A stretch of 64,000 nt of DNA from Rhodoplanes sp. Z2-YC6860 (GTDB lineage Bacteria > Pseudomonadota > Alphaproteobacteria > Rhizobiales > Xanthobacteraceae), in contig NZ_CP007440.1 of assembly GCF_001579845.1 (NCBI RefSeq), positions 4,114,029 to 4,178,028 of the forward strand, in the 5' to 3' direction. A program made the position numbers and the translations under genes. The stretch's first letter is position 1, and every line of letters starts with the position of its first letter. The notes under the pieces were generated by a model. That model saw only the letters and a list, made by a program, of their open reading frames with translations. It was not told the DNA's origin and made no database searches. Positions 47,930-57,237 of this stretch are shown here, piece by piece.

Positions 47930-48973
47930 CTAAGCCATCGCCCGCGTTCTGGCCGATGCCTTGAGTTCGGGCATCACCTTCTTCGCAAACAATCCGATGG
48001 AATGCAGCGACTCCGCGAGGCTCATGTCGCCGAACACCATCTGGCACATCAGATAATTGCTGCCAGACTCTTCTATCCGTCGTGACAGCACGTCGAGGAC
48101 AGTCTGCGGCGAGCCTGCGATACCGAGTTCGCGCTGTACCACATCGGGGAAGTTGTCCGCGCGCTCACCGTGCACCGGAGAACGACCGTGCAAGTGATAG
48201 AGATAGTGGAAGCTGTGGTGCCAGACCTTGTAGGCGCGGTCGGCGAGCTTCTGTGCTTCGGCATCGGTGTCGCCGACCACGACGAACACATTCATACCCA
48301 TCTTGATCTTCGGATCGAGCCCGCCGTTCTGTCGCGCGGTCTCCTTGTAGCGCTCGACGCGCGCGCGCATTTCTGACGGCCGCTGGATCGCCACGAAATT
48401 CATGTTGGCGCGCGCGGCCTGCTCGGCGTTCTCGAGCGAGCTCACGCCCATCCACAGCGGCGGATGGGGCTTCTGCAGCGTCTCGAGCTCGATCGGCACG
48501 TCCGTGGCAGTCCGGTATTGGCCCTGCACGGTGACGCGCTTTTTCGTGAACGAGTCCTTCATGATCTGCCAGGTTTCGGCGAACGTTTGCCGCGACTCCT
48601 TGAAATCGGTGGACTCGCCGTAATAGCCCGCCTCGACGGGCGAGATGCCACGGCCGATGCCGAGCTCGAGCCTTCCACCGCTGAGCTGATCGAGCATGCA
48701 GATCTCCTCGGCGAGCCGCAGCGGGTGATAGAACGGCAGAATGTAGACGAGGGGGCCGAACCGCAGCGTCGTGGTGCGCTGTGCCACCGACGCGAGGAAG
48801 ATGCCGGGCGAGGCAGCCATGCCGAGCGGCGTAAAGTGGTGCTCGGCGATGTGGTAGCAGTAGAAGCCGTGGCGTTCGTAAGCCTGCGCGATCTGGATGC
48901 GTTCCTCGAAGAATTGCCGAAGTGGTGCACCCGATCGATCGACGTGATCGAAGACGCCGAATTCCATTTTCAA
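47930..48973 (-). CDS. LLM-class (luciferase-like) flavin-dependent oxidoreductase
   Basis: 347 aa. A clear paralogue of the protein at 4166-5191: MKMEFGVFDHVDRSGAPLRQ, AEHHFTPLGMAASPGIF, SGGRLELGIGRGISPVEAGY and PPLWMGVSSLENAEQ align throughout. It would use reduced flavin and O2 on an organic substrate. It is the last gene of the minus-strand unit ThDP enzyme, cytochrome c, Bug protein, oxidoreductase, only 7 bases after the Bug gene. No flavin reductase lies next to it. Confidence 0.88.
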   Translation of the reverse strand: MKMEFGVFDHVDRSGAPLRQFFEERIQIAQAYERHGFYCYHIAEHHFTPLGMAASPGIFLASVAQRTTTLRFGPLVYILPFYHPLRLAEEICMLDQLSGGRLELGIGRGISPVEAGYYGESTDFKESRQTFAETWQIMKDSFTKKRVTVQGQYRTATDVPIELETLQKPHPPLWMGVSSLENAEQAARANMNFVAIQRPSEMRARVERYKETARQNGGLDPKIKMGMNVFVVVGDTDAEAQKLADRAYKVWHHSFHYLYHLHGRSPVHGERADNFPDVVQRELGIAGSPQTVLDVLSRRIEESGSNYLMCQMVFGDMSLAESLHSIGLFAKKVMPELKASARTRAMA

Positions 48974-48980
48974 CTCCCGA

Positions 48981-50054
48981 TTATTTTTGTTCTGGATTGA
49001 GATTGATGGCTTTGACCACGCGCTCCCAGCGCGCGGAGTCTTCCTCGATCAGGTTCCGGAACTCCGCGGGCGAACTGCCGACCGGCTCCATGAGGATGCG
49101 CGCAAGCGCGTCCTTCGCCTGAGGCTGCTGCACCGCGTTGGCGAATTCACGGCCAACCTTCTCCACGATCGCAGGAGGCGTGCCACTGCGCATCACGATG
49201 CCGTTCCAGCTGAAGGCCTGCATGCCGGGAACGGTCTCGGCCACGGTCGGCATCTCGGGATAGAAAGAGGTGCGCTTGGCCGTGGTGACGCCAAGCGAAC
49301 GCAGCGCGCCCGACGCGAGATGGCTCGCGACCGATGACGAGACGTCGATGGTCAGATCGACATTGCCGGCGAGCAGGTCGTTCAGTGCCGGGGCATTGCC
49401 GCGATAGGACACGTGAACCATATCGGTGCCGGTGAGCAGCTTGAACAGCTCGACCGAGAGATGGGCCACGCTGCCGATGCCGGTGCTGGCGTAGGTCACT
49501 TTGCCGGGATTCTGCTTCAGATAGGCGATCAGCTCCTGCACGGTGTGGGCTGGCACCTTGTTGGGATTCACCACCAGCATCATCGGCGCAATGACCAGCA
49601 GCGTCACCGGCGTGAGGTCGGTCATCGGATTATAAGGGAGGTCGCGGCGCAGCGCCCGCAACGCGGTGTGCGAGGTCGGCGCCGCGTTGAGCAGCGTGTA
49701 GCCGTCGGCAGGCTGCCGGACCGCAAATTCGCCGGCGATGGCGCCAGTGGCGCCCACGCGGTTGTCGATCACGACAGGTTGGTTCCAGTTTTTGCTGACT
49801 GTCTGTGCCAGGAGCCGCATGACCACGTCGCTCGATCCGCCGGCCGCGAACGGCACGACGACCTGCACGGGGCGTGAGGGAAACGAAGAGGCCTGCTCCT
49901 GGGCGGGCAACTGCCGGCTACAGCACAGCGAAACGGCCGCCACGATCGCGCTCCGAAGCGCGGCAGGCCATACCCCAATTTTCAAATGCGAACCCCACCT
50001 ACAGGCATCTCGACCAAGCCGCTTCCGCACTCCCCGGACGAAGCCGAGGCCCAT
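48981..50054 (-). CDS. TctC/Bug-family periplasmic solute-binding protein
   Basis: 357 aa from ATG 50054; a TTG at 49985 after AGGTGGGG gives a more normal signal peptide (WPAALRSAIVAAVSLCC) and a 334-aa protein. Bug signatures are PVQVVVPFAAGGSSDVVMRL, PVVIDNRVGATGAIAGEFAV, PADGYTLLNA and YASTGIGSVAHLSVELF. It lies between the cytochrome c and oxidoreductase genes, with no tripartite membrane subunits nearby. It presumably binds the carboxylate used by the operon's enzymes. Confidence 0.9.
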   Translation of the reverse strand: MGLGFVRGVRKRLGRDACRWGSHLKIGVWPAALRSAIVAAVSLCCSRQLPAQEQASSFPSRPVQVVVPFAAGGSSDVVMRLLAQTVSKNWNQPVVIDNRVGATGAIAGEFAVRQPADGYTLLNAAPTSHTALRALRRDLPYNPMTDLTPVTLLVIAPMMLVVNPNKVPAHTVQELIAYLKQNPGKVTYASTGIGSVAHLSVELFKLLTGTDMVHVSYRGNAPALNDLLAGNVDLTIDVSSSVASHLASGALRSLGVTTAKRTSFYPEMPTVAETVPGMQAFSWNGIVMRSGTPPAIVEKVGREFANAVQQPQAKDALARILMEPVGSSPAEFRNLIEEDSARWERVVKAINLNPEQK

Positions 50055-50155
50055 GGAAATTTCCGGGAATGGCTGGGCGTGCGCAGCGCGCCAGGCTCAT
50101 GTGGCTCAGGCGGGAACGCATGGGGCGGAACGCATGGGCGCGATGGTGCGCCCAA

Positions 50156-50518
50156 TCAGTTGTTCAGGATCGCGATGTCCTTGGCCGGTCGTCGTCCCGG
50201 AAGGCTCTGTAGGAACGCGTAGATGTCGGCAACGTCCTGGTCGGGCAGCACCGCTTCGACATAGGCCGGCATGTCCCGCAACGACTGCCGCAGCACGCCT
50301 TTGAAGCCCTCGAACGGAACCTCGGTCTTGGCGAGCGCCGGCGCCGGATAGTTCAGCGCGCCGCCCTGGCCAGAGCGGCCGTGGCAGTAGTAACAGCCGA
50401 CGGCCACAAAGACCTGCTTGCCATGGGCGACATCGCCCTTCGGCGCATCCTGGGCTCGCGCCGCCGCGGTGAGGGCGAGCACGCTGAGTGCGCCGATCAA
50501 GACAGCTTTCGACATCAT
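50156..50518 (-). CDS. Small periplasmic c-type cytochrome
   Basis: 120 aa. Signal peptide (AVLIGALSVLALTAAARAQ), then a single haem c motif CYYCH in FVAVGCYYCHGRSGQGG; Met in RQSLRDMPAY is the likely sixth haem ligand, and the C-terminal helix DQDVADIYAFLQSLP is typical of class I cytochromes. It carries electrons in the periplasm. GGGGAGAG directly precedes the start used here (50518), which rules against the ATG at 50533. It begins 11 bases after the Tat-signal ThDP enzyme gene, suggesting it accepts electrons from that enzyme. Confidence 0.92.
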   Translation of the reverse strand: MMSKAVLIGALSVLALTAAARAQDAPKGDVAHGKQVFVAVGCYYCHGRSGQGGALNYPAPALAKTEVPFEGFKGVLRQSLRDMPAYVEAVLPDQDVADIYAFLQSLPGRRPAKDIAILNN

Positions 50519-50529
50519 ATCTCTCCCCA

Positions 50530-52461
50530 TCACCGCGGATCAGTCACGACATCGATCAAGGCGGGTGCGCCGCTCTTGACCACTGCGAGCGCGCGTTTGA
50601 TCGCCGGCGCAAGGTCCTTGGGGTCTGTGATCGGTCCTTCGCCGTATATGCCGTAGCCTTTCGCCACGGTGGCGTAGTCGATGTTGGGGTCGGTCAGCGT
50701 CGTGCCGATGCGCGTGTTGGTGATGCCGCGGGCATGACGCGCCGCCATCGCCTGCAGGTACATCAGCTCCTGATGATAGGCGCGGTTGTTGTGCACGATA
50801 TAGAGGATCGGAATCTGGTGATGCGCCGCGGTCCACAGCGCGCCCGGCACGAAGTTGAAATCGCCATCGCCGCCAAACGCCACGGTAAGGCGGCCGTGCT
50901 TCTTGTTGGCGAGCGCCGCGCCGATCGAGGCGGGCAGGTTGTAGCCGATGCCGGCACCGCCGGCGCCGCCGTTCCACTGATAGGACTTCTTCATGTCCCA
51001 CAGCCGGTGCGGCCACACGTTGCGAATGGCGTTGCCGACCAGCGACCAGTCCTCGTCCTTGATCTGCGCGTAGACCTCGGCGCACATCCGCGCCGTGGTG
51101 ATCGGGCTCGCGTCCCAGCCGATCGTCGCTTCGGAGCGGGCCTGGTCCATCATCGCCAGCCGCGCCGCGGCGAGCTTCTTGCCGCGCGCCTCGAACGCGT
51201 TCTTGCGGCCATCGTCGACGAGCTTCTTCACTTGCTCGGTCAGCGCCGGCAGCGAGGCTTCGCCGTCGCCGGTGATCGCCAGGTCGACGTCCTGGTAGCG
51301 CGAGAAGTCCTGATAGTTTGCTCGGATCAGCATGTCGCGGGTGCCGAGCGTGACGAGCTTGGCGTCCTTCTTGGCGACGCGCCGGTAGCTGCGCTCGATC
51401 CGGTCGCTGAACTGGTTCAACACGCCCCAGAGGTCGTTCATCTCGATCGCCAGGATCACGTCGGCTTGCGCCAGAACCGGGCCGCGGCGGAAGCTCATGT
51501 TGAGCGGATGCCGCGACGGGAAGTTCATGCGGCCGGCGTTGTCGATCACCGCGCATTGCAGGGTTTCGGCAAGCTCGACCAGCCGCTCCATGCCGGCCGG
51601 CGTTCGCGCCAGGCGGTCGCAGATGATCACCGGGTTCTCGGCAGCCACCAGCAGCTTCGCGGCTTCGGCAAGCGAGCCGGAATCGCCGACAGGCGCCATC
51701 ATCTTGCCGAGCTTCGGAATGTGCAGCGTCTCTGCATCCTTGATCGGATTTTCCTGGAGTTCGGCGTCGAGCGACAGCAGCACCGGAGCCATCGGCGGCG
51801 TCATTGCGACCCGGTAGGCGCGCACGGCCGATTCAGCGAAATGCTGGAGTGACGTGGGCTGATCGTCCCACTTGGTGAAGTCGCGCGTCAGCGCGCCGAT
51901 GTCGATTGCCGAATGCACCCATTCGGCGCCCGGCATGCGCTTGTCGGCTTCGACGATGTTGCCGCCCATGCAGTAGACCGGCGCGCGGTCGCACCAGGCG
52001 TTGTACATCGCCATCGTGGCGTGCTGCAGGCCCACGACGCCGTGGCAGATGAAGGCCATCGGCTTGCCTTCGATCTTGGCGTAGCCGTGTCCCATCGCCA
52101 CCGCGATTTCCTCATGCGGACAGGTGAGGATTTCCGGTTTGTTGTTGTTGTGATTGAGCACGGCCTCGTGCAGGCCGCGGAAGCTCGAGGCGCAGTTCAT
52201 CGCCAGGTATTCGATGTCGAGCGTCTTGAAGACGTCCACCATGAAGTCGCCGCCGCTCGACGACTGCGTGGCCGGATCCTTGACCGGAGCCGTGGTTTCG
52301 ACAGCGATTTGCCGCGGACCAGGTCCTGGCGCCTTCAATTTTGCAACCGGCACGGCGGCTTCGGCGGTCGGCGCCACTGCCACGGCGGCGGTGCCGGCCA
52401 GGGCGGCGCCTTTCAAGAAATTGCGGCGACCCATACCGCGCGGATTGTCAGACTTCGACAC
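50530..52461 (-). CDS. Tat-signal thiamine-diphosphate-dependent enzyme
   Basis: 643 aa from GTG 52461, which follows GGGAGGTCACC. A consensus twin-arginine signal (GRRNFLKGAALAGTAAVAVA, likely cleaved near TAEA) precedes a complete acetolactate-synthase-type fold. The cofactor-activating Glu lies in CPHEEIAVAMGHGYA (about residue 118), and the ThDP/Mg motif runs from GDGDFNF (about 531) to VHNN (about 559). It may be a periplasmic oxidase or decarboxylase of 2-oxo acids. The next gene is an exported cytochrome c, a natural electron acceptor. Most family members are cytoplasmic, so the location is unusual. Confidence 0.88.
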   Translation of the reverse strand: MSKSDNPRGMGRRNFLKGAALAGTAAVAVAPTAEAAVPVAKLKAPGPGPRQIAVETTAPVKDPATQSSSGGDFMVDVFKTLDIEYLAMNCASSFRGLHEAVLNHNNNKPEILTCPHEEIAVAMGHGYAKIEGKPMAFICHGVVGLQHATMAMYNAWCDRAPVYCMGGNIVEADKRMPGAEWVHSAIDIGALTRDFTKWDDQPTSLQHFAESAVRAYRVAMTPPMAPVLLSLDAELQENPIKDAETLHIPKLGKMMAPVGDSGSLAEAAKLLVAAENPVIICDRLARTPAGMERLVELAETLQCAVIDNAGRMNFPSRHPLNMSFRRGPVLAQADVILAIEMNDLWGVLNQFSDRIERSYRRVAKKDAKLVTLGTRDMLIRANYQDFSRYQDVDLAITGDGEASLPALTEQVKKLVDDGRKNAFEARGKKLAAARLAMMDQARSEATIGWDASPITTARMCAEVYAQIKDEDWSLVGNAIRNVWPHRLWDMKKSYQWNGGAGGAGIGYNLPASIGAALANKKHGRLTVAFGGDGDFNFVPGALWTAAHHQIPILYIVHNNRAYHQELMYLQAMAARHARGITNTRIGTTLTDPNIDYATVAKGYGIYGEGPITDPKDLAPAIKRALAVVKSGAPALIDVVTDPR

Positions 52462-52685
52462 GGTGACCTCCCAACAGTTGATATTTTGATTTTGGACAGT
52501 GTCGCGCCGGGCGCGGTGGCCGGTCAAGGCGGGCTTGGTCGTGTTATGGTTTGCGGGTAAAAAGGTAGCGTCGCGAGACTCGTCCGCATCTCGGGCCGGA
52601 AGATGCTATCATTTGCCGACGGGCCGCTTGATTGACGTCAGCTAAAGCTTAGCCGCGGGCAGCAGGTTAAGGGACGAACGAACAT

Positions 52686-54469: not shown

Positions 54470-55450
54470 TCATTCCGGCTTGATGTTGCCGGCCGCGATA
54501 ATCTTCACCCATTTGTCGATCTCGCGGTCGACGTGGCTGCGAAATTCATCGGTCGAGGTGCCGATCGGTTGAAAGCCGCGCGCCAGAAGCTTCTCGCGAA
54601 ACACCGCGTCCTTCACTGTCGTGGCCGAGATGCGCTGCAGCTTCTCGACGATCGGGGCGGGGGTCGAAGCGGGTACGACCAGGCCCATCTCGCTTGCGGA
54701 GTCGACGCTGCCGTAGCCGATCTCGTCCATGCCAGGGATGCCCGGAAGCTGTGGCGCGCGTCCGCGCGTGACGCCAAGCCCGCGCGCGTTTCCAGCTTCA
54801 ATGTAGGACTTGATCGACGGCACCGCGCCGAAGGTGAAGTCGACCTTGCCGGCGAGGAAATCGGCCAGCGCCGGCGCGCCGCCGCGATAGGGGACAATGA
54901 CGATCTGGATGCCGGCGACCTGGCGGAATTGTTCGCCGGCGAGGTGAATGCCGGTGCCGATGCCGGCCGATGCAAAGGTCAGCTTGCCGGGATTGGCCTT
55001 GGCGTAGTCGACCAATTCCTTCGCGGTTTTGAACGGCGAGGCCGCGGGCACCGCGAGCACGAGCTGCGTGCGTGAAAGCAGCGACACCGGGATGAAATCC
55101 TTTCGCGTGTCGTAGGGAAGCTTCTCGCCGAGCAGGCCGGGATTGGTGACGAAGGCAGAGTCGACCATGCCGATGGTGTAACCATCGCCCGCCGCATCGG
55201 CGACGGCGCGGGTGCCGATGGTGCTGGCGCCACCGGCACGGTTGTCGATGACAAGCGGCTGGCCGAATTCTTTCTCCATTTGCGCCGCGAGCAGCCGCGA
55301 GAACACGTCGGTCCCGCCGCCCGGTGCATACGGCACGATCAGCTTCACCGGACGTTGCGGGTAAGCGTCTTGCGCGCGCAAGGAAGAAGCACCCGCAAGA
55401 CATAACGCAGCAGCACCGGTGGCGAGCTGCCGCCTGCTCACGAAGGTCAT
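54470..55450 (-). CDS. TctC/Bug-family periplasmic solute-binding protein
   Basis: 326 aa. N-terminal export signal with RRQLATGAAALCLAGASSLR (Tat-like, RRQLAT), then Bug motifs PVKLIVPYAPGGGTDVFSRL, PLVIDNRAGGASTIGTRAVA, AGDGYTIGMV and FASAGIGTGIHLAGEQF. It lies 31 bases downstream of the enolase-superfamily gene on the same strand, suggesting that it binds that enzyme's sugar-acid substrate. No tripartite membrane subunits are present. Confidence 0.92.
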   Translation of the reverse strand: MTFVSRRQLATGAAALCLAGASSLRAQDAYPQRPVKLIVPYAPGGGTDVFSRLLAAQMEKEFGQPLVIDNRAGGASTIGTRAVADAAGDGYTIGMVDSAFVTNPGLLGEKLPYDTRKDFIPVSLLSRTQLVLAVPAASPFKTAKELVDYAKANPGKLTFASAGIGTGIHLAGEQFRQVAGIQIVIVPYRGGAPALADFLAGKVDFTFGAVPSIKSYIEAGNARGLGVTRGRAPQLPGIPGMDEIGYGSVDSASEMGLVVPASTPAPIVEKLQRISATTVKDAVFREKLLARGFQPIGTSTDEFRSHVDREIDKWVKIIAAGNIKPE

Positions 55451-55481
55451 GGACTTTTCTCCCGAACGGCGTTTGTTGTTG

Positions 55482-56576
55482 TCAGACGCGGTATTTCAAC
55501 AACTCATCCTCTTCTGGATCGGCGCCAAGTCCGGGCCGGTCCGGCACGTCGACCGCGCCGTTCACGTCCGGCACCGTCTTCGTGTAGGGGACAAAAGCCA
55601 CATCGGCGAACAGCCGCTCCAGCGGCGCATCGCGGTCTTTCGAGGCGATACAGTGCAGCGTTGCGAGATAGCCCGGGCCGAAGAAGAAAGCATGGGGCAC
55701 GCAGGTGATGCCGGACTTCTCGGACTCGGTCGCGATGCGGAAGAGTTGCGTGATGCCGCCGATTTTGACGATAGACGGCTGCACATAGTCGGTAGCACCG
55801 GCCGCAATCATTTTGCGGAAATCGCTTGGGCTCGTCGCGTTCTCGCCCATCGCGAGCGGCATGCCAGTGGCCTTGCGGAGCTTGGCCGCCGATTCAAAAT
55901 CCTCCGGAGGCCAGATCGGCTCCTCGACCCAATACGGATTCGACGGTTTCATCGCGGCGACCGGCTTTTCGGCTTCGCCAGGCGTCCAGCCGCAATTGGT
56001 GTCGACCTTGATTGGGATCGCCGGCCCGGTGACCGAGCGGGCCGCGGCGACGGCCTCGGCGGTGCGCTCATGCAGCTTGATGTGGCGATAGCCGCGCTCC
56101 AAGGCGCGAGCGGTGTTGCGCTTCACGTGCTCGACATCGCCGGCGTATTGCAGAAGCGACGCATAGGTCTCGACGCGCTTGCGCTTCGGTCCGCCCAGCA
56201 GCTTCGACACCGACGCGCGTTCGAGCTTGCCGCGGATGTCCCACAGCGCGATGTCGAGGCCGCTCAGTGCATGCATCACCGGACCGGCGCGACCGAGGCC
56301 GTGCAATAGCCGCTCCATGGTGGGAAGCAGGTTCGGATCGGTCGGATCCTTGCCGACCGCAAGCTGCCGGATCCAATTGTCATAGGCCGCGACCACCAAG
56401 GTGCCGCTCGAGCCGAAGGCCTCGCCCCAGCCAATCGTGCCATCGCTGCATTTCACTTTGACATAGAGCGCCTCGACATGGGTGCGCGGCCGGCCGGCGA
56501 ACAGCGGAGGCGGCGCCCAGGTGTCGAGCGGGATCCGCACGTGAATGACGTCAATGGCACTGATGGTGACGGGCAT
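55482..56576 (-). CDS. Mandelate racemase/muconate lactonizing enzyme (enolase superfamily)
   Basis: 364 aa cytoplasmic TIM-barrel enzyme. The N-terminal capping domain opens MPVTISAIDVIHVRIPLDTW. Metal ligands appear as Asp in IKVDTNCGW, Glu in YWVEEP and Glu in AMGENA, with a lysine in HIKLHERT at the position of the second-strand base and a His in VPHAFFFGPG. It would abstract a proton alpha to a carboxylate, most likely dehydrating or racemising a sugar acid or mandelate-like acid. ATG 56576 is chosen; the frame is open to 56729 but overlaps the divergent gene. The adjacent Bug gene supports acid-sugar uptake. Confidence 0.9.
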   Translation of the reverse strand: MPVTISAIDVIHVRIPLDTWAPPPLFAGRPRTHVEALYVKVKCSDGTIGWGEAFGSSGTLVVAAYDNWIRQLAVGKDPTDPNLLPTMERLLHGLGRAGPVMHALSGLDIALWDIRGKLERASVSKLLGGPKRKRVETYASLLQYAGDVEHVKRNTARALERGYRHIKLHERTAEAVAAARSVTGPAIPIKVDTNCGWTPGEAEKPVAAMKPSNPYWVEEPIWPPEDFESAAKLRKATGMPLAMGENATSPSDFRKMIAAGATDYVQPSIVKIGGITQLFRIATESEKSGITCVPHAFFFGPGYLATLHCIASKDRDAPLERLFADVAFVPYTKTVPDVNGAVDVPDRPGLGADPEEDELLKYRV

Positions 56577-56625
56577 TTCGCTTCCTCGGGATGGCAGGCT
56601 TTTTGAGATCGCTATAGTGGACGAC

Positions 56626-57237
56626 ATGCGGGGCGCTGTAATCCCGGTTTTTGCAGTTCTGGCTTGCTTGGCGTTGCCTGGCCTGGCGGCGACGCCGGCT
56701 TTGGCCCATCCGCCGCCGCTTGGGCTCACGGGCTTCGCGGGTGGTGCGCTGCATCCGCTGTTCGTGATCGATCATGCGATGGCGGTGCTGGCGATGGGCC
56801 TGATGGTGGGCAGCCAGACGCGATGGGGCTGGCCGCCCGTCATCGGCTTTGGGTTGGGCATCGCGGCGGGGATCGCCGTGATGGTTTCGGGGGCGGTGCC
56901 GCTCTACGCCAACGAGACCATTCTGGGCATCGCCGTTCTATCGGGCGTTCTGGTCGCGCTGGCGTGGCCGCTGTCGGTCCGCATCGGGATTGCGCTTGCG
57001 GGCGTGCTCGGGATTGCGATCGCGCTCGACTCGCCGCCCGAGGCGCTGTCGATCAGCGAAGCCAACCGGACGCTCGCCGGCACGGCGGTCGGCGCCACGA
57101 TGTTCCTGATCGCGATGTGGCAGACCACGCGATACGCGCGGCCGCTGTGGGCGCGGATCGCGGTGAGGGCTGCCGGGTCGTGGATCGCGGCGGCCGCAAT
57201 TCTGGCGCTTGCGTTGCGCTTCGTGCGACCGGACTAG
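56626..57237 (+). CDS. HupE/UreJ family membrane protein
   Basis: 203 aa. A signal-like first helix (VFAVLACLALPGLAATPALA) is followed by the family motif HPPPLGLTGFAGGALHPLF and VIDHAMAVLAMGLM, with a conserved His in HPLFVIDH, and about six helices. HupE and UreJ proteins are putative nickel or metal permeases. No hydrogenase or urease genes are nearby, so it is a stand-alone copy. ATG 56626 is used; it diverges from the enolase-superfamily gene. The stop overlaps the start of a palindromic repeat. Confidence 0.88.
   Translation: MRGAVIPVFAVLACLALPGLAATPALAHPPPLGLTGFAGGALHPLFVIDHAMAVLAMGLMVGSQTRWGWPPVIGFGLGIAAGIAVMVSGAVPLYANETILGIAVLSGVLVALAWPLSVRIGIALAGVLGIAIALDSPPEALSISEANRTLAGTAVGATMFLIAMWQTTRYARPLWARIAVRAAGSWIAAAAILALALRFVRPD

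Follow-up and report, generated by a model that had tools for sequence, protein, structure and literature searches.

A conserved gene pair encoding a putative Tat-exported thiamine diphosphate enzyme and a c-type cytochrome in Rhodoplanes and other bacteria

Results

A 64,000-nucleotide stretch of Rhodoplanes sp. Z2-YC6860 DNA (contig NZ_CP007440.1, positions 4,114,029 to 4,178,028; "the window" below) encodes on its minus strand a thiamine diphosphate (ThDP)-dependent enzyme with a twin-arginine translocation (Tat)-type signal, followed directly by the gene for a c-type cytochrome. The two genes are a real, conserved two-gene unit, and both the Tat motif and the adjacency of the cytochrome gene are well beyond chance. 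We consider it probable that the ThDP enzyme is periplasmic and oxidizes a 2-oxo acid (or an acyloin or aldehyde), with the electrons passing to the paired cytochrome c. The features of the pair are as follows (window coordinates).

50530..52461, minus strand: ThDP-dependent enzyme with Tat-type signal, 643 amino acids, GTG start (open reading frame, Pfam, ribosome binding site)
52467-52472, minus strand: ribosome binding site GGGAGG, five bases 5′ of the ThDP GTG
52411..52431, minus strand: twin-arginine motif GRRNFLK, residues 11-17 of the ThDP enzyme (read in translation)
52111..52113, minus strand: catalytic glutamate E117 of the ThDP enzyme, aligned with benzoylformate decarboxylase Glu47
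52042..52044, minus strand: H140 of the ThDP enzyme, aligned with benzoylformate decarboxylase His70
50156..50518, minus strand: signal-peptide class I cytochrome c, 120 amino acids (ATG start, Pfam, model)
50381..50395, minus strand: heme c attachment motif CYYCH (read in translation)

The ThDP protein scored above the Pfam cutoffs for TPP_enzyme_N, TPP_enzyme_M, and TPP_enzyme_C. These three domains, the catalytic glutamate, and a whole cofactor motif (GDG at residues 531-533, NN at 558-559) place it in the ThDP decarboxylase/acetolactate synthase superfamily. Neither E117 nor H140 varied in an alignment of 26 rows or in one of 53 rows; their counterparts Glu47 and His70 have known roles in benzoylformate decarboxylase. 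At the N terminus, GRRNFLK is followed by a hydrophobic stretch and then by AEA, an A-x-A sequence ahead of the mature part (identified by eye), a combination that marks the enzyme as a predicted Tat substrate. The cytochrome ATG, preceded by GGGGAGAG, lies 11 bases beyond the ThDP stop codon. Its product has the CxxCH motif, a distal methionine within DMPAY, and matches above the cutoff to both Cytochrome_CBB3 and Cytochrom_C, as is typical of class I c-type cytochromes. Both Pfam models were matched by 40/40 aligned cytochrome rows, and C42, C45, and H46 were invariant in these rows, all of which had been chosen for CxxCH. An earlier sequence-only reading of this DNA had described the consensus Tat signal, the intact catalytic glutamate and GDG...NN motif, and the signal-peptide cytochrome 11 bases away, and each is present as described. 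A scan for promoters and terminators returned 0 and 3 sites, respectively, not above shuffled sequence.

Conservation of the pair

The twin-arginine (RR) motif is retained in homologs. Among 80 named loci, the best-scoring of at least 585 relatives, it was kept in 77 of the 78 with an intact 5′ end. Two loci are truncated at the 5′ end (L063 and L055, the apparent RR of L063 being a false match), and the L095 frame is without RR, possibly through a frameshift. In the window's family, 27 matches were detected in 20 of 149 genomes (E 1e-150); R12, R13, and F15 were invariant in the 26 that were aligned (alignment A1, which omits L031, a match whose start was wrongly picked). RR is also invariant in alignment A2, there by selection, since A2 was built from RR-bearing loci. 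Of 103 proteins whose starts were assigned, mostly with the help of RR.F/L/M, 100 have F at the F position of the motif and 3 have L. RR persists down to ~50% identity, across Acidobacteriota and Pseudomonadota, while the remaining N-terminal region varies. This pattern argues against the idea that the motif is unused, with a cytoplasmic enzyme and a cytochrome adjacency that reflects operon history, as does the lack of a cytochrome gene behind those paralogs in the same genome that have no Tat-type signal (see below). Export is predicted here from sequence, which leaves some room for that idea; we nonetheless regard it as very improbable. The sequence-only reading had named a start downstream of RR in homologs as grounds for abandoning its proposal, and the homologs keep the motif.

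Conservation of the cytochrome gene next door was comparably broad. An open reading frame (ORF) with CxxCH lay within 700 bp downstream of the ThDP frame in 73 of the 80 named loci, versus 14 of 604 other ORFs of at least 350 amino acids in the same loci (a mechanically called set). Under a stricter filter, 68 of the 77 RR loci encoded a full cytochrome whose ORF includes a Met-Pro ligand region; 62 of these cytochromes count as monoheme and 6 as diheme, and the gap to the ThDP gene was at most 60 bp in 53 of the 68 (median, about 20). Elsewhere, the cytochrome ORF runs into a contig end (L067 and L105), 144 bp of room remains behind the ThDP gene (L089), or a diheme cytochrome ORF has its first motif 736 bp on (L109). 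Within the window's family, a cytochrome was present at 27/27 matches, 4 of which also belong to the set of 80. Both RR and cytochrome were found in 5/5 newly sampled genomes, and 30 loci from 16 carrier genomes, which overlap loci already counted and include paralogs, had a cytochrome in 23 cases and RR in 29. Plasmid-borne relatives in Caballeronia and Novosphingobium also carry both, and one annotated record, that of the Caballeronia plasmid, labels the pair merely "thiamine pyrophosphate-binding protein" and "c-type cytochrome." Absence of the cytochrome gene beside homologs, which the sequence-only reading had listed as fatal to its proposal, is not the pattern observed, and the conserved adjacency is that expected of a dehydrogenase-cytochrome c pair.

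Paralogs and distribution

Within the Rhodoplanes genome itself, 22 of ~26 ThDP-type places were read, with four weak partial matches left out. A Tat-type signal occurs in three of these 22 genes, each with a cytochrome c gene behind it; the remaining 19 have neither feature. At one place (L036), a CxxCH motif occurs 616 bp downstream, but the ORF that holds it has no visible signal peptide and was not counted, and at another (L173) RR is present with no hydrophobic stretch after it. The Tat-bearing three are the window gene, a 52% identical paralog, and a distant, 29% identical enzyme with the Tat-type signal SRRKLM (L040:5843-8238, about 4597842-4600237 of the genome). The cytochrome of L040 is diheme, its ATG overlaps the ThDP stop codon, and it gives a modest match to Dehyd-heme_bind (31.9 bits; cutoff, 25.2). 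Relatives of L040 define a second lineage, in which RR is present in 6/6 loci; L163-L166 keep RR and lack an adjacent cytochrome, a short CxxCH ORF behind L164 not being counted as one. Because the window gene, its 52% identical paralog, and the 29% identical L040 enzyme all bear both signal and cytochrome, Tat-signal ThDP enzymes exist in two distant lineages, each with cytochrome-paired members. The neighbors of the paralog in this genome (a TonB receptor, a PKHD-type hydroxylase, and trehalose genes, all identified by eye) gave no clue to the substrate.

We also examined how the pair has diverged and how widely it occurs. In a tree of 59 rows (comprising roughly half of the 77 named rows together with others, built by a "quick" method, with the long rows L040 and L123 dropped and the signal region trimmed), 52 Tat rows formed one clade against 7 cytoplasmic rows (Shimodaira-Hasegawa-like approximate likelihood ratio test [SH-aLRT], 100), with one change of state; another tree had an unresolved backbone. 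Pairwise distances of the ThDP enzymes and their cytochromes were strongly correlated (r = 0.81, 62 pairs; top of 2000 shuffles, 0.14). Judging by record titles, carriers of the pair include Acidobacteriota as well as Bradyrhizobium and its relatives. Among other genomes of the phylum, 0/397 had a match at E 1e-150 (three candidates scored per genome), and 7/247 genomes had a match in the phylum of the genome holding L061, two of them already known carriers; the Tat-ThDP gene is therefore sporadic. Some carriers hold several copies: there are six matches in genome G546, all 50-59% identical, and six in G550, one of them merely 40% identical. A decayed Tat-ThDP copy with five internal stops was seen in genome G544 (contig C808:4095-5780), which holds four other matches without internal stops.

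Relatives and alternative functions

The structural model of the ThDP enzyme (mean predicted local distance difference test [pLDDT] score, 85.2; residues 1-48 below 50) matched benzoylformate decarboxylase, acetolactate synthase, benzaldehyde lyase, 2-hydroxyacyl-CoA lyase, and CDH (entry 4d5g, which we take to be cyclohexane-1,2-dione hydrolase) at 17-23% identity. By sequence and fold, the nearest solved relatives are benzoylformate decarboxylases (e.g., 1bfd) and their relative 4q9d, with acetolactate synthase close behind. On this point the sequence-only reading, which had proposed an acetolactate-synthase-like fold, is corrected. The top NCBIfam model was of the PRK08327 type (thiamine pyrophosphate-requiring proteins), at 255.6 bits and below its cutoff of 456. 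Scores also fell short of the cutoffs for benzoylformate decarboxylase (NF005485, 151.7 versus 493 bits), the acetolactate synthase large subunit (TIGR00118, 125.5 versus 538.35 bits), and ubiquinone-dependent pyruvate dehydrogenase (PoxB, 71.9 versus 792 bits). Five paralogs in the same genome that are 33-38% identical to the window enzyme (L003-L007) differ from it in having neither a Tat-type signal nor an adjacent cytochrome.

Benzoylformate decarboxylase, a cytoplasmic, nonoxidative enzyme, shares the three-domain ThDP fold, the catalytic glutamate, and the matching histidine with the window enzyme, but identity is ~20% and the family score is far under the NF005485 cutoff. This kinship bears on an alternative in which the exported enzyme is a nonoxidative decarboxylase or C-C lyase of the benzoylformate decarboxylase or benzaldehyde lyase type, a different periplasmic dehydrogenase oxidizes the aldehyde product, and the cytochrome serves that later step. 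The nearest solved relatives are named as nonoxidative enzymes, H140 matches His70, and relatives of pyrroloquinoline quinone (PQQ) dehydrogenases lie directly upstream in L076 and L085 and farther off in L082, L095, and others, all of which favor this alternative. However, no dehydrogenase family is prominent around the pair: in a Pfam scan of 130 neighbor proteins, taken where each flank of the locus spans at least 4.5 kb, the commonest family accounted for 5 proteins and PQQ for 2 (first 25 of 162 families). We judge the nonoxidative alternative unlikely, while giving it some weight.

In pyruvate oxidase and PoxB, the ThDP intermediate is oxidized into the respiratory chain; PoxB works with flavin adenine dinucleotide (FAD) and quinone on the cytoplasmic side. 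Both PoxB and the window enzyme use ThDP, and what sets the latter apart is its Tat-type signal and the cytochrome c paired with it. The window enzyme could be a PoxB-like flavoenzyme, with an FAD in its middle domain taking electrons from the ThDP intermediate and the cytochrome (or O2 or quinone) receiving them in turn. The enzyme does have the middle domain, and relatives among the acetolactate synthases and pyruvate oxidases bind FAD; yet the PoxB score is a small fraction of its cutoff, and the nearest solved relative, benzoylformate decarboxylase, has no FAD. We consider a flavin route of this kind distinctly unlikely.

The cytochrome model (pLDDT, 86.0) gave weak structure matches (best E, 0.001), among them a weak one to the cytochrome subunit of p-cresol methylhydroxylase (1wve_C; root mean square deviation, 2.1 Å; TM-score by target, 0.79; E = 0.04). 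Like the window pair, p-cresol methylhydroxylase combines a catalytic subunit with a small class I cytochrome; its catalytic subunit is a flavoprotein, in place of which the window pair has a ThDP enzyme.

Neighboring genes

Two further genes lie downstream of the pair in the window.

48981..50054, minus strand: Bug (TctC) binding protein, a local neighbor outside the conserved unit (Pfam TctC)
47930..48973, minus strand: luciferase-like (LLM) flavoprotein, a local neighbor outside the conserved unit (Pfam Bac_luciferase)

The sequence-only reading had joined these to the pair in a system of four genes. All four were found on the minus strand at the places it gave, and conservation of RR and of the cytochrome supports its core; Bug and LLM do not belong to the unit. 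Across the 80 named loci, 47 of which have >3 kb on both sides, Bug relatives were detected in 11 and an LLM relative in 1, where it was 8 kb away, and a four-gene unit was rejected on these counts. In 3 loci, no more than 350 bp separated the Bug relative from the ThDP frame (L045, same strand; L050 and L066, opposite strand). Outside the set of 80, a Bug gene lies just upstream on the same strand in L023, and an LLM relative ~1.1 kb upstream on the other strand in the Novosphingobium locus L123. Bug genes also directly adjoin three of five cytoplasmic paralogs in the Rhodoplanes genome (L036, L038, and L039). Since this 8.2-Mb genome holds at least 150 TctC (Bug) genes (462 first-look candidates), finding one next to the pair means little. 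Window positions 54470-56729, upstream of the ThDP gene and separated from it by a gene that looks radical-SAM-like by eye, encode an enolase/mandelate-racemase-like protein (also named by eye) and another Bug receptor, whose start is Tat-like (SRRQLATGAA).

Weak hints to the substrate came from individual neighborhoods. Genes for PcaB and PcaDC of the protocatechuate pathway lie downstream in L061. A 4-oxalomesaconate tautomerase gene is found just downstream in L108 (the same gene as L029), and its relatives adjoin the cytochrome gene, on the other strand, in L104 and L121 and lie several kilobases off in L103. L084 has a tannase-family gene. Given these aromatic-degradation neighbors and the benzoylformate-decarboxylase-like core, our guess is that the enzyme acts on 2-oxo acids resembling arylglyoxylates, formed from aromatic compounds of lignin or tannin origin. 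Clustering of the neighbors was dropped as evidence because it merged real genes (cytochrome and Bug) with antisense and out-of-frame ORFs.

In L100, a flavin mononucleotide (FMN)-dependent hydroxyacid dehydrogenase with its own Tat-type signal and a CxxCH motif is encoded 8 bases upstream of the ThDP gene (script-picked start); it could make a 2-oxo acid in the periplasm. As a regular partner this enzyme was rejected: it is near the pair in L100 and L057, and none of the other FMN-dehydrogenase matches (30/42 genomes) was within 40 kb of a known Tat-ThDP place on the same contig, many of the contigs being short. These dehydrogenases (L100:8589-9845, plus strand, and L182-L201) are an observation in their own right: both the Tat-type signal and the internal CxxCH were present in 13/13 FMN-dehydrogenase ORFs recognized among 20 loci (one being the L100 copy), and they may represent a flavocytochrome b2 equivalent that works in the periplasm and carries heme c. 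Separately, at L107:6604-7500 (plus strand), a locus without a cytochrome, the next gene is vicinal oxygen chelate (VOC)/glyoxalase-like (by eye) and has its own Tat-like signal, NRREFIAGA.

Discussion

In the reading we favor, periplasmic oxidation by the ThDP enzyme with transfer to its cytochrome, the enzyme would fold and load ThDP in the cytoplasm, and the Tat pathway would carry it folded over the inner membrane. Tat exports folded proteins, so the cofactor can travel along. In the periplasm, the enzyme would attack a 2-oxo acid (or an acyloin or aldehyde), and the enamine (Breslow) intermediate present after decarboxylation would be oxidized in one-electron steps. The partner class I cytochrome c would pass the electrons towards the respiratory chain, and the product would be released as a carboxylic acid. 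ThDP intermediates can donate to one-electron acceptors such as ferricyanide; by analogy, a cytochrome c could accept electrons from the intermediate in the periplasm. Comparison across loci lends good support to export and respiratory coupling as predictions. Export, complex formation, direct transfer from ThDP to heme, and the oxidative chemistry are steps that we infer from the genes' sequences.

Several observations weigh against this account. Gene adjacency is no proof of electron transfer, and no fusion of the ThDP and cytochrome genes was found among 103 proteins. The correlated divergence of the two proteins could also follow from joint inheritance alone. No cytochrome was detected in the DNA examined at 5 of the 77 RR loci (L073, L078, L081, L094, and L107) or within 1.5 kb at 7 of the 30 carrier-genome loci, with some loci shared between these two counts, and in the second lineage only 2/6 loci have an adjacent one. 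The named loci, drawn from the top of the scores, come mostly from metagenome-assembled genomes, and the substrate hints are weak, each coming from one to a few of the 80 loci.

We tentatively suggest that these proteins may make up a new class of respiratory dehydrogenases, in which a dedicated c-type cytochrome takes electrons straight from the Breslow intermediate of a Tat-exported ThDP enzyme, with no flavin or iron-sulfur center involved. On this suggestion, there would have been at least two origins of the pairing, since the two ThDP lineages are distant and differ in their cytochromes, and multiplication would have occurred in the main lineage, as in the six copies of G546. A search of the open-access literature, with most subscription journals outside its reach, returned no paper on a Tat-exported ThDP enzyme with a cytochrome c. 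With just two genes, the unit lends itself readily to expression and testing.

Textbooks treat ThDP enzymes as cytoplasmic. The Tat-ThDP/cytochrome pair of these soil bacteria points to a respiratory enzyme of an uncharacterized type, acting on keto acids or related compounds. If this is true, periplasmic respiration would gain a cofactor class from a conserved periplasmic ThDP lineage linked to cytochrome c, and its carriers would have a way to draw energy from 2-oxo acids without importing them.

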